From: Onchidella celtica | Taxonomy: Eukaryota; Mollusca; Gastropoda; Systellommatophora; Onchidiidae | DNA: 64,000 bases | Assembly: GCA_963931925.1 (NCBI GenBank) | Contig: OZ007570.1 | Location: 71,553,421 to 71,617,420, forward strand | Direction of reading: 5' to 3' | In this document: positions 17,087-19,760 of the stretch, one piece after another | How positions within the stretch are numbered: the stretch's first letter is position 1 | Layout of the letters: the number at the start of each line of letters is the position of its first letter | Translations under genes and position numbers: made by a program | Notes under the pieces: model-generated | The model's input: only the letters and a program-made list of their open reading frames with translations | What the model was told of the DNA's origin: nothing | Database searches by the model: none

Positions 17087-17140
17087 CCGAGGCAATGGTA
17101 CGAACCTTTTACTGATTGTAATGTCTACCAGAGGCATTCT

Positions 17141-17770
17141 ATGTCACCAAGGGAGCGCATCTTCAACTACAGACTGTCCAGATCAAGAAGGGTTGTGGAG
17201 AACGCATTCGGACTGCTTTCCAATCGTTTCAGACTTTTCCTGAAGCCCTGTGAGCTTCAGCCTGACAATCTCAGGGATTGCATCACAGCTGCCATGACAC
17301 TCCACAACATGCTCATCATGCGCAGGCCACCTCCACCTCAAGCTGTGGACCAGGAGGACAGAGAAAGGAATGTAATGCCAGGCTCCTGGAGACAAATGGT
17401 GATGTGGGAGCAACCAGCAAATGAGCACAGGCCACCTCGTGCAACCAATGCTGGGATGAAGGTGAGAAATGACCTGGCAGACTACTTTGGAACCCCAAGA
17501 GGCATGGTCCCCTGGCAATGGCGGATGGCCCACCTCAAACCACCAACAGAACTCCCGGATTTCTACCCTCAGCCAGGACCTGCCGACCCTCAACCAGCAC
17601 CTGCCAACCCTCAGCCTGCTGATGCCGACACTCAGCTTGATCCTGAAAACCGCCCACCTATTGGTCTTCGGCTTGCTGCTGCCAACATTGGGCCTGCTGC
17701 TGCCAACCCTCAGCCTGCTGCTGCAAACCTCCAGCCTCATGCTGCTGACAGCCTTGCTGTCTGTACCTGA
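17141..17770 (+). CDS. HARBI1-type transposase, C-terminal part
   Basis: The region RERIFNYRLSRSRRVVENAF is the diagnostic end of the DDE_Tnp_4 domain and holds the catalytic Glu (VVEN). LHNMLI follows at the usual distance. The upstream two thirds with both Asp residues are absent. The frame opens at 17087 and an acceptor-like TCTACCAG lies at about 17124-17131, so this may be a last exon. After the core comes a region with repeated PANPQPA-like units. It would cut DNA only as part of a complete enzyme, so this copy is not competent alone. The stop TGA is 21 nt before a histone-type stem-loop. Confidence 0.8.
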   Translation: MSPRERIFNYRLSRSRRVVENAFGLLSNRFRLFLKPCELQPDNLRDCITAAMTLHNMLIMRRPPPPQAVDQEDRERNVMPGSWRQMVMWEQPANEHRPPRATNAGMKVRNDLADYFGTPRGMVPWQWRMAHLKPPTELPDFYPQPGPADPQPAPANPQPADADTQLDPENRPPIGLRLAAANIGPAAANPQPAAANLQPHAADSLAVCT

Positions 17771-17791
17771 AAACATCCAAACCAATTATCA

Positions 17792-17807
17792 GGTCCTTTT
17801 CAGGGCC
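17792..17807 (+). terminator. Histone-type 3' stem-loop after transposase stop
   Basis: GGTCCTTTTCAGGGCC matches the metazoan consensus GGYYYTTHTHARRRCC at all 16 positions: a six-pair stem (one G-T) and a TTTC loop. It is followed by ACCAA, close to the usual ACCCA, and about 10 nt later by a purine run (AGAGGG) where a histone downstream element would lie. It starts 21 nt after the stop. In histone mRNAs this element binds SLBP and directs U7-dependent cleavage without polyadenylation. Confidence 0.7.
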
Positions 17808-17875
17808 ACCAATTTTCCACAGAGGGTTAAACCCAAAACACAACCCCCCCAAGACACACGTACACACACACACAC

Positions 17876-17891
17876 GGCCATTAACAGGGCC
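17876..17891 (+). terminator. Decayed histone-type stem-loop copy
   Basis: GGCCATTAACAGGGCC matches the consensus at 14 of 16 positions, with a mismatch in the stem. Its 3' flank (ACAAATGAATTA) equals that of the minus-strand stem-loop at 18237-18252, so the two form an inverted pair. Probably a duplicate of the MADF gene end. Confidence 0.5.
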
Positions 17892-18068
17892 ACAAATGAA
17901 TTACACACACATACACACGATAACACGACCCCAACACACACACACGACCCCCACACACATTGTGTGTATGTGTGTGTGGGGGAGGGGCGTATTATCGTGT
18001 GTGTGTGTGGGGGGGGGGGTCTTATTATCGTGTGTGTGTGTGGGTGTGTGTGTGGGGGGGGCGTATTA

Positions 18069-18101
<33 letters not shown>

Positions 18102-18230
18102 GGGGGGCGCATTATCGTGTGTGGGGGTGTGTGTGTGGGGGGGTCTTATTATCGTGTGTGTGTGTGGGGGGGCGTATTATCGTGTGTGTGTGTGGGTGTG
18201 TGTGTGTGTGTGGGGGTGTGTGTCTAATTC
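17892..18230. repeat. CA/GT minisatellite between convergent gene ends
   Basis: CA-rich on the left and GT/G-rich on the right, so the strand can fold back. The right part contains six copies of TATTATCGTG or CATTATCGTG, separated by variable (GT)n and G-run spacers. Frames across it are repeat artefacts. Confidence 0.9.
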
Positions 18231-18236
18231 ATTTGT

Positions 18237-18252
18237 GGCCCTGAAAAGGGCC
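18237..18252 (-). terminator. Histone-type 3' stem-loop after MADF-gene stop
   Basis: On the minus strand GGCCCTTTTCAGGGCC matches GGYYYTTHTHARRRCC at all 16 positions, with a fully paired six-base stem and a TTTC loop, followed by ACAAA. It begins 24 nt after the TAA that ends the most protein-like C-terminal frame of the MADF gene. Confidence 0.7.
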
Positions 18253-18276
18253 GGGTTGAACTCAGAGGAGCAACCC

Positions 18277-19354
18277 TTATTCCAAGTCCCCAGAAATGGC
18301 AAAGCCCAGGTCCTCAGCAAGTTGGTCGTTTGGTGTAGATGACGGTTGGGTGATGTGTTGAGGGTATGCTCGCTTCCTCGGGGACAGCCTTGGCAGATAC
18401 ATTTGTTGCATGGAGGTCTCTCTCTCTCCATGCCTACCAACCATTCCATGTAGGTAGTTGAATGCGCCCTGGACGGTGTCGTCTGCTGCTGTGATGGCAT
18501 CATAATGGGATCAGTTGGTGCAGGAGCCCTAGATCTCCATCTATGGGCTAATGCAACCATCTCCGTTGACAGGGATATCCAGTCGTCTTCTGGCATGTCC
18601 TTCACTATCCCATCAAGATACCCCCAGAATTGCTGCCGATGATTTGTTGCTTGATTCACTCTTGCAAGTAAATCAAGCCGAATGGTTTCACAGCACGAGC
18701 AGCACGTACGAGCACTTGTGGTTAGTTCTGATGTCGAGGCCATATGCTGCTGTGCACGAAGGGGGGGGGGGGCTGACTTTCCTCAGCAGTCGATCCAGTC
18801 AGACTAAACTCGGACAGCTCAACGGGCAGCTCAACGGATGGCTGTGTGTCCAACCTTGAAAGTGAACTCTGGAATTCGATACCTCTGTTGGCAGACAAAT
18901 TCTCAATGTGACACAGCAGAAATTGGAATTTGTCCCAGACATATCGGTCAGATGCAGTGTTGTTCAAGGGTGCACCACCACTCTTAGTCATCCTCCTCTT
19001 GAGCTTTCCAAGGATTGTCCGCATGGAGTAGTACCAGCTTCTGATCAGTGGCAGCTCCACCCCCATTCCTGCAGCTACCTCATTCCATTCCAAATTCCTC
19101 CTGGTAGCATTCTTGAACTCAGAGCTTTGCTTTTGATAGAGATGAGGCCTCTCGATCAGAAACTCAATCACAGTGTTCTTTTGCTCCGCTGTGAGGCCCT
19201 TCTTGCAAGAGACACGGGGTTTGGCCTTCCCTTTCGGGCCGGCTACACCCTTTCCCTTGCCTTTTGAACCTCCTGCATGGGGAGCAACTGGAAGTGGTGC
19301 TTCTTCATCCTCAAACGACCTGTCCATGACATTTTCAGCTTCCGATGTAGACAT
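18277..19354 (-). pseudogene. MADF/Myb-SANT-like PIF-Harbinger partner protein, frame-disrupted
   Basis: In PIF-Harbinger elements this second protein binds element DNA and brings the transposase to the ends. The start is taken at MSTSEAENVMDR (19354), about 50 bp downstream of a TATA box; an upstream in-frame ATG at 19447 precedes the TATA. A Gly/Lys-rich basic stretch is followed by an MADF-like region (LTAEQKNTVIEFLIERPHLY, then RRNLEWNEVAAGMG). The frame breaks at a run of about ten G near 18760, continues with FWGYLDGIVKDMPEDDWISL (a BESS-like end), and shifts again near 18510 to a frame ending AEDLGFAISGDLE and TAA at 18277-18279. With two shifts it is probably a dead copy, unless the assembly has homopolymer errors. 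Confidence 0.72.
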
Positions 19355-19401
19355 CTTGTGATGAGCAGTGGAAAAAGACGGCGAAATAACACAAGCAGGC
19401 C

Positions 19402-19411
19402 CTATATATAG
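19402..19411 (-). promoter_or_regulatory. TATA box of the MADF gene
   Basis: CTATATATAG, symmetric, about 50 bp upstream of the chosen ATG at 19354. This would place transcription start near 19375 and exclude the ATG at 19447 from the mRNA. Confidence 0.5.
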
Positions 19412-19425
19412 TGTAGTCTCACTGT

Positions 19426-19658
19426 ACTCGTGCGCGAGTCGACACAAACGTGTGGGCTTGTGTCAACACGCACGAGTAGGCTGACACGAACCCAGGCGAA
19501 CGCCTCCGCTCGCATGTCAAGAAATCGCACACGACTTGCCGAAAAAATAAGGCTGGAGCTATTTTTCTGCAGCTAGGCACGAGTTTGACACGAGTTGGTG
19601 TGTGAGGGCCAAAAACACGTGTCAAAACAAGCCTCAGCACGCCTCAGCACGCACGAGC
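19426..19658. repeat. CACGAGT motif cluster at element right side
   Basis: CACGAGT occurs at 19471, 19578 and 19589, as ACTCGTG at 19426, and as CACGAGC at 19652. Subterminal motif repeats are where Myb-like partners of Harbinger elements are known to bind; this assignment is inferred from position. Confidence 0.45.
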
Positions 19659-19760
19659 TTCATAATTATCAAAATCGCATGCGAGTTTTCTTGGTGAGAC
19701 TGCGGCATAATGAACCGAAAACAAAAAGGAGACAGAGAAGAGAGACAGAAAGACATAGAG

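Follow-up and report, generated by a model that had tools for sequence, protein, structure and literature searches.

The histone stem-loop, or hairpin, is generally taken as a mark of histone mRNAs, and PIF-Harbinger transposons combine a gene for a DDE_Tnp_4 transposase with a second gene for a Myb/SANT/MADF-like protein. Here we analyze a PIF-Harbinger copy whose two convergent genes are each followed by a histone-type hairpin. It lies in a stretch of 64,000 nucleotides of the gastropod Onchidella celtica (GenBank assembly GCA_963931925.1, contig OZ007570.1, positions 71,553,421 to 71,617,420), which is referred to as the window and corresponds to C4:71.55-71.62 Mb in a genome of 1.14 Gb that was searched as a whole. 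In histone pre-mRNA, according to the part of the article available, the histone downstream element (HDE) pairs with U7, and cleavage falls between hairpin and HDE (PMC7026596). The accessible parts of two further articles describe hairpin, HDE, and no poly(A) signal for the replication-dependent histones of Hydractinia (PMC5011920) and a hairpin plus a poly(A) signal for the histone genes of Caenorhabditis elegans (PMC1924863). PIF-Harbinger elements in molluscs are treated in PMC10294476, available in part, in whose main text the term stem-loop does not occur. No described case of a transposon with a histone hairpin was found in searches of open-access full texts, as far as their accessible parts go.

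The element shares with PIF-Harbinger transposons the DDE_Tnp_4 transposase, the MADF partner gene, the terminal inverted repeats (TIRs), and the 3-bp TWA target duplication (TAA or TTA); an earlier note on this DNA, made from the sequence alone, had thus named the superfamily correctly. It differs from them by the hairpins at both gene ends, and the nearest other family examined in this genome (L041) has no hairpin, carrying instead AATAATAAAA, an AATAAA, after its partner gene. With the histone stem-loops of Rfam model RF00032 it shares an AC-type, ACCCA-like 3' flank and a spacing of 24-32 nt after an uninterrupted open reading frame (ORF). It differs from histone mRNAs in that the hairpins sit on mobile-element genes and stay below the gathering score, with the U7 element undemonstrated.

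These hairpins form a real sequence pattern that is not random and extends through the family. We consider it fairly probable that both convergent genes of this PIF-Harbinger family carry histone-type 3' ends instead of poly(A) ends. The genes and hairpins concerned, with the basis of each assignment in parentheses, are the following.

17141 to 17770, plus strand: transposase ORF, 3' portion of 209 amino acids, with a TGA stop at 17768-17770 (Pfam DDE_Tnp_4, 2.3e-09)
17792 to 17807, plus strand: T-SL, the histone-type stem-loop after the transposase, GGTCCTTTTCAGGGCC, then ACCAA (consensus match, RF00032 score)
18237 to 18252, minus strand: M-SL, the histone-type stem-loop after the MADF gene, GGCCCTTTTCAGGGCC, then ACAAA (consensus match, RF00032 score)
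18277 to 19354, minus strand: MADF-domain gene, frameshifted in the window copy, with a TAA stop at 18277-18279 (Pfam MADF_DNA_bdg, 9.7e-06)

Both 16-mers reported in the earlier note are present, with 0 mismatches to GGYYYTTHTHARRRCC, and the window contains no other perfect match. The chance expectation of 0.02 given there was reproduced by shuffling (mean of 0.02 in the window), and two matches were reached in 0 of 100 shuffles. The spacing was also as described, since T-SL starts 21 nt past the transposase TGA and M-SL 24 nt past the minus-strand TAA at 18277-18279; the choice of this MADF stop is confirmed by the uninterrupted frames of copies L027 and L028, which end at it, and the ACCAA after the first hairpin is found in the window copy. 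Both window hairpins fit the histone consensus of a 6-bp stem and a 4-nt loop, and their predicted folds, each of 6 pairs, have energies of -7.2 and -9.9 kcal/mol. The T-SL distance of 21 nt is unique to the window copy, because this copy carries an 11-nt deletion; every other fetched copy in which the stop is preserved (L021, L022, L024, L027, L028, and L029) has a distance of 32 nt.

The genome-wide searches revealed where such hairpins occur. (i) The exact 18-mer GGYCCTTTTCAGGGCCAC had 20 matches, and its reversed control had 0. Fifteen of the 20 lie in the transposon family and 5 after host genes, namely, 26 nt past the H2A.X stop (L012), at two genes with linker-histone domains above the Pfam cut-off (L001 and L017), at one with a linker-histone match just under that cut-off (L013), and after a gene for a lysine/arginine-rich protein without a linker-histone match (L020). 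(ii) The generic 18-mer GGYYYTTHTHARRRCCAC was found at 129 sites versus 25 for the reversed control (2 x 1.14 Gb). Among the 100 of these 129 sites that were listed, 81 were in the histone cluster at C2:0-352 kb, 10 in the transposon family, 2 at linker-histone-like genes, and 7 elsewhere; 5 of these 7 (4 regions) were fetched, with C3:30.17 and C4:19.27 Mb left out. (iii) From the reversed-control rate of the generic 18-mer, a chance match is expected at about 1e-6 per 100-nt stretch, and two stop-adjacent hairpins are therefore far beyond chance. Chance could be invoked for a few generic matches elsewhere that look random (L072, L073, and L074); for the transposon hairpins it is refuted by the 0.02 matches expected in the window, the rate per 100 nt, and the 0 reversed controls for GGYCCTTTTCAGGGCCAC, which leave it a negligible probability.

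The hairpins of the host's own histone genes provide the closest comparison. They were read from one unit of the tandem cluster.

C2:144600-150600 (L060): host tandem histone cluster unit with H2A, H2B, H3, and H4 and a 5S rRNA gene (~5.95-kb units at the contig end)

In this unit, the hairpins are GGTCCTTTTTAGGACC (H3), GGCCCTTATAAGGGCC (H4), GGCCCTTTTCAGGGCC (H2B), and TGTCCTTTTCAGGACA (H2A). M-SL is the same as the H2B and H2A.X hairpins, whereas T-SL is the same as those of the linker-histone-like genes L001 and L017. Host hairpins start 33 nt (H3), 32 nt (H4), 52 nt (H2B), and 26 nt (H2A.X) past the stop. Outside the hairpin and its AC tail, the two transposon flanks have no visible match to one another or to those host hairpin genes that were sampled. 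Since the hairpins match those of host histones in look and spacing, a reading at the level of the 3' end is the best one, and the hairpins most likely act at the mRNA 3' end, as judged from these likenesses. That the 16-bp near-palindromes are instead DNA sites bound by a protein of the element itself, MADF or transposase, would suit their near-palindromic form and the DNA-binding nature of the MADF domain. However, the hairpins are ~1.5-2 kb away from the element ends, the asymmetric TTTC loop and the ACC/ACA tail are kept in sense on both strands, and the match to host histone-type hairpins is exact; we rejected a DNA-level binding palindrome on these grounds and hold it to be very improbable.

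To what extent the pattern extends over the family depends on the sampling. The nine genomic stretches L021-L029 were chosen for exact hairpin content and are thus a biased sample. Searches with the transposase and MADF proteins, which are independent of the hairpin, removed this bias and added L034 (C2:64.8 Mb). The best 150 of 759 candidates of the transposase search comprised 9 copies at 95-100% identity, 140 matches at <=44%, and a 60-amino-acid copy fragment on C16. Viral contigs, searched in addition, yielded no relatives of the transposase. The MADF search returned nine places of the transposon family, with C4:13.4 Mb occupying two rows. The ten M-SLs correspond to ten family loci, of which two that are separated by 8 kb (C1:98.606 and C1:98.615 Mb) possibly belong to one broken element. 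Over nine copies, T-SL is identical in 7 and within the consensus in 8; M-SL is identical at 9 of 10 loci, with one loop change in L024 (C4:13.4 Mb). The 3' flank is ACCAA at all 9 T-SLs and ACAAA at 9 of 10 M-SLs, reading ATAAA in L034. A capture of the hairpins in the window copy only, which the earlier note had named as what would refute its proposal, is thereby ruled out. Its expectation that related copies share the stem-loop holds for the near members of the family and fails for the more distant Harbinger loci considered below.

The members of this family are young PIF-Harbinger transposons. Five complete elements measure 3.7-5.4 kb. The alignment of the fetched copies gave the TIRs TGCCGCAGTCTCACC / TGCCGCAGTCTCACCAAGAAAACTCG and target duplications of TAA or TTA, which are identical on both sides in L021, L024, L027, and L028, whereas the flanks of L025 are unequal (left TAA, right TTA). 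The transposase is encoded by an uninterrupted stop-to-stop frame of 592-593 amino acids in L022, L027, and L028, and the frame of L028 matched Pfam DDE_Tnp_4 at 6.6e-24. The MADF stop-to-stop frame is uninterrupted in L027 and L028 (381 and 382 amino acids, respectively), so that both genes of these two copies are uninterrupted frames, like the intronless histone genes.

The proposed mechanism can be outlined as follows. Host SLBP, for which an encoded RNA-binding domain was found at C1:108.2 Mb, would bind the hairpin 24-32 nt past each stop, and the pre-mRNA would be cleaved a few nucleotides downstream, through either the U7 machinery or a different route that depends on SLBP. The products would be short, tail-less transposase and MADF mRNAs that are stable and translated mostly in replicating cells. 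SLBP binding, cleavage, the missing poly(A) tail, and the coupling to replication are steps that we infer, and the limitation to S phase is drawn from known histone biology. We see the chances as evenly balanced that both transposon mRNAs enter the host histone-mRNA pathway, involving SLBP and probably the U7 small nuclear ribonucleoprotein, as tail-less S-phase transcripts. Of the route put forward in the earlier note, the family-wide hairpins with host-like look and spacing stand; a U7 downstream element could not be demonstrated, and the U7 small nuclear RNA (snRNA) was not identified.

A number of observations weigh against histone-type ends on these genes. (i) The RF00032 scores of T-SL and M-SL, the check proposed in the earlier note, were 25.7 and 25.6 bits (E ~1e-4 in a 1101-base search); both are under the gathering score of 34, and Rfam at the gathering threshold gave no match in the whole window. 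Failing this threshold says little, because the host H3 (29.6 bits), H4 (28.9 bits), and H2B (19.6 bits) hairpins fail it too, and the transposon scores fall inside this host histone range. In the genome-wide RF00032 search, in which 75 of 232455 candidates were scored and 10 matches listed, H2A.X alone passed; the transposon hairpins are not among the 10 matches, and the cluster histones are absent as well. (ii) A downstream U7 site was demonstrated at neither flank. The sequence in question after T-SL is given below.

17808 to 17834, plus strand: stretch after T-SL with CAGAGGGTTAAACCC, a putative U7-binding element (P = 0.068 when compared with 12 genes of the host that have hairpins)

The 35 nt after T-SL have a weak likeness to the 12 host hairpin genes at this P value, with H2A.X as the best match, and the M-SL flank is unlike them (P = 0.81). 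(iii) A search with RF00066 for U7 snRNA gave no match; the model was silent in control genomes too, so that absence is not shown. With a tentative U7 pattern based on the host's downstream motifs, 9 matches were obtained versus 21 in reversed controls, and none of the 9 had a strong terminal hairpin. (iv) Canonical poly(A) signals (AATAAA/ATTAAA, both strands) number 0 in L024, L027, and L028 (3.9-4.2 kb); they are present in L021 (1) and L025 (3). Shuffling gave expectations of ~1.2-1.4 in the four shorter copies and 3.2 in L025, and the absence in L024, L027, and L028 is compatible with composition (P of 0.23-0.26). We gave up this absence as significant evidence after the shuffles and keep it as a plain fact; host flanks contain 13-22 such signals per 4 kb. 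(v) In L034, T-SL is broken, and the usual stop codon is also altered. (vi) With <=2 mismatches allowed, no hairpin was found in the 1.5-kb flanks of any of the 20 Harbinger loci examined at greater distance (L040-L059), which were drawn from the 140 transposase matches at <=44% and of which several are copies of the same families. (vii) The synonymous distance (dS) is ~0.02 for most transposase pairs (0.01-0.09 across all compared pairs); because dS is so low, the identity of the copies is evidence of recent common descent and not of constraint. The ratio of nonsynonymous to synonymous distance (dN/dS) ranges from 0.41 to 2.16 among these pairs, at low dS, and hairpin identity among copies was dropped as proof of constraint.

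The negative U7 results bear on a further possibility, that the hairpin works on the RNA without U7 cleavage. The SLBP-bound mRNA would then be polyadenylated or trimmed, or the hairpin would just stabilize or terminate the transcript. Neither HDE nor U7 could be shown, which favors this view, as does the combination of hairpin and poly(A) signal in C. elegans histone genes, as given in the available part of PMC1924863. Against it stand L024, L027, and L028, where, unlike in the C. elegans genes, both hairpins lack a nearby canonical poly(A) signal; we rate it as quite improbable.

A third hairpin, overlooked in the earlier note, bears on constraint.

17876 to 17891, plus strand: decayed third hairpin GGCCATTAACAGGGCC, which duplicates M-SL and its ACAAATGAATTA tail in inverted orientation (sequence comparison)

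No stop adjoins it, and only 4 pairs are left in its predicted stem. Among copies L021-L029, the 8 that contain it all have the form GGCCATTAACAGGGCC, with the consensus gone from stem and loop, and it is likewise gone in L034 (GGCCACTAACAGGGCC). The decayed state shared by the copies indicates that the decay predates the spread of the family. That the stop-adjacent hairpins were kept while the misplaced one decayed is the best hint of constraint in these sequences, though it comes from one event. The same contrast argues against the hairpins being relics, that is, 3' ends of histone genes that an ancestral element took up on one or two occasions and that were passed on neutrally, with no role in its expression. 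Such relics would agree with the young, near-neutral copies (dS mostly ~0.02), whose identity needs no selection, with the examined distant Harbinger loci being devoid of a hairpin, and with the HDE being undemonstrated at either flank. Nevertheless, each gene has a sense hairpin at about the histone distance, and the flanks are dissimilar beyond the hairpin and AC tail; we therefore regard neutral relics as unlikely and favor histone-type 3' ends in use.

If this is true, the family would be a mobile-element case of the histone cell-cycle pathway and would explain directly, at the sequence level, how a transposon of the cut-and-paste type could be coordinated in time with replication, S phase being when cut-and-paste transposition can gain copies. 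The transposon transcripts would also be invisible to standard poly(A)-selected RNA sequencing.

The remaining parts of the window copy are listed below.

17132 to 19707: PIF-Harbinger copy, 5'-truncated, with the right TIR as its sole TIR (aligned to copies L021-L029)
17892 to 18236: region between the convergent genes, mainly CA/TG simple repeats (sequence)
19700 to 19707: right TIR terminus CTGCGGCA (read from the sequence)
19708 to 19710: right-side target-site duplication TAA (read from the sequence and compared with complete copies)

The window copy is itself a relic, because it is truncated at ~17132, a point overlooked in the earlier note, and its MADF gene is frameshifted. Of 83 genomic matches found with the MADF-side ORF, 66 span only its first ~20-36 residues, upstream of the ATG, and are probably non-autonomous relatives, similar to miniature inverted-repeat transposable elements, with a common terminal region.

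Several other host sequences carry related hairpins. The host H4 and H2B genes have CTTCCCAATTAGC in common downstream of the hairpin, which is possibly the local U7-binding element. Two copies of a dispersed repeat, L061 (C2:21.88 Mb) and L062 (C13:39.63 Mb), are 98.5% identical over 886 bp and contain GGCCCTTTTAAGGGCC then AAACAACC, with no clear gene end there. The genes L001, L013, L017, L020, and L067 have the same hairpin core as the transposon and differ from it by a hairpin 62-100 nt past the stop and by being chromatin-type, non-mobile host genes. They are linker-histone-like or very basic (protamine-like), and the histone-hairpin pathway of the host may therefore also serve sperm chromatin proteins. 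L063 and L064 (C15:25.75 and 25.77 Mb), L066 (C14:34.78 Mb), and L071 (C4:33.367 Mb) form a small dispersed gene family. An assignment of L063, L064, and L066 as piggyBac-like was dropped, one ORF each of L063 and L066 having no Pfam match. The ORFs of the family contain MG[GAQ]K[FLI][AP]KL, and histone-type hairpins with ACCCA tails and AAGGTTCAAG downstream are located ~170-260 nt past the stop; in L071, two hairpins are present with 32 bp between them. The members of this family look like host genes other than histone genes that use histone-type ends, and the hairpin stems alternate between GGCTC/GAGCC and GGTTC/GAACC, a compensatory change.

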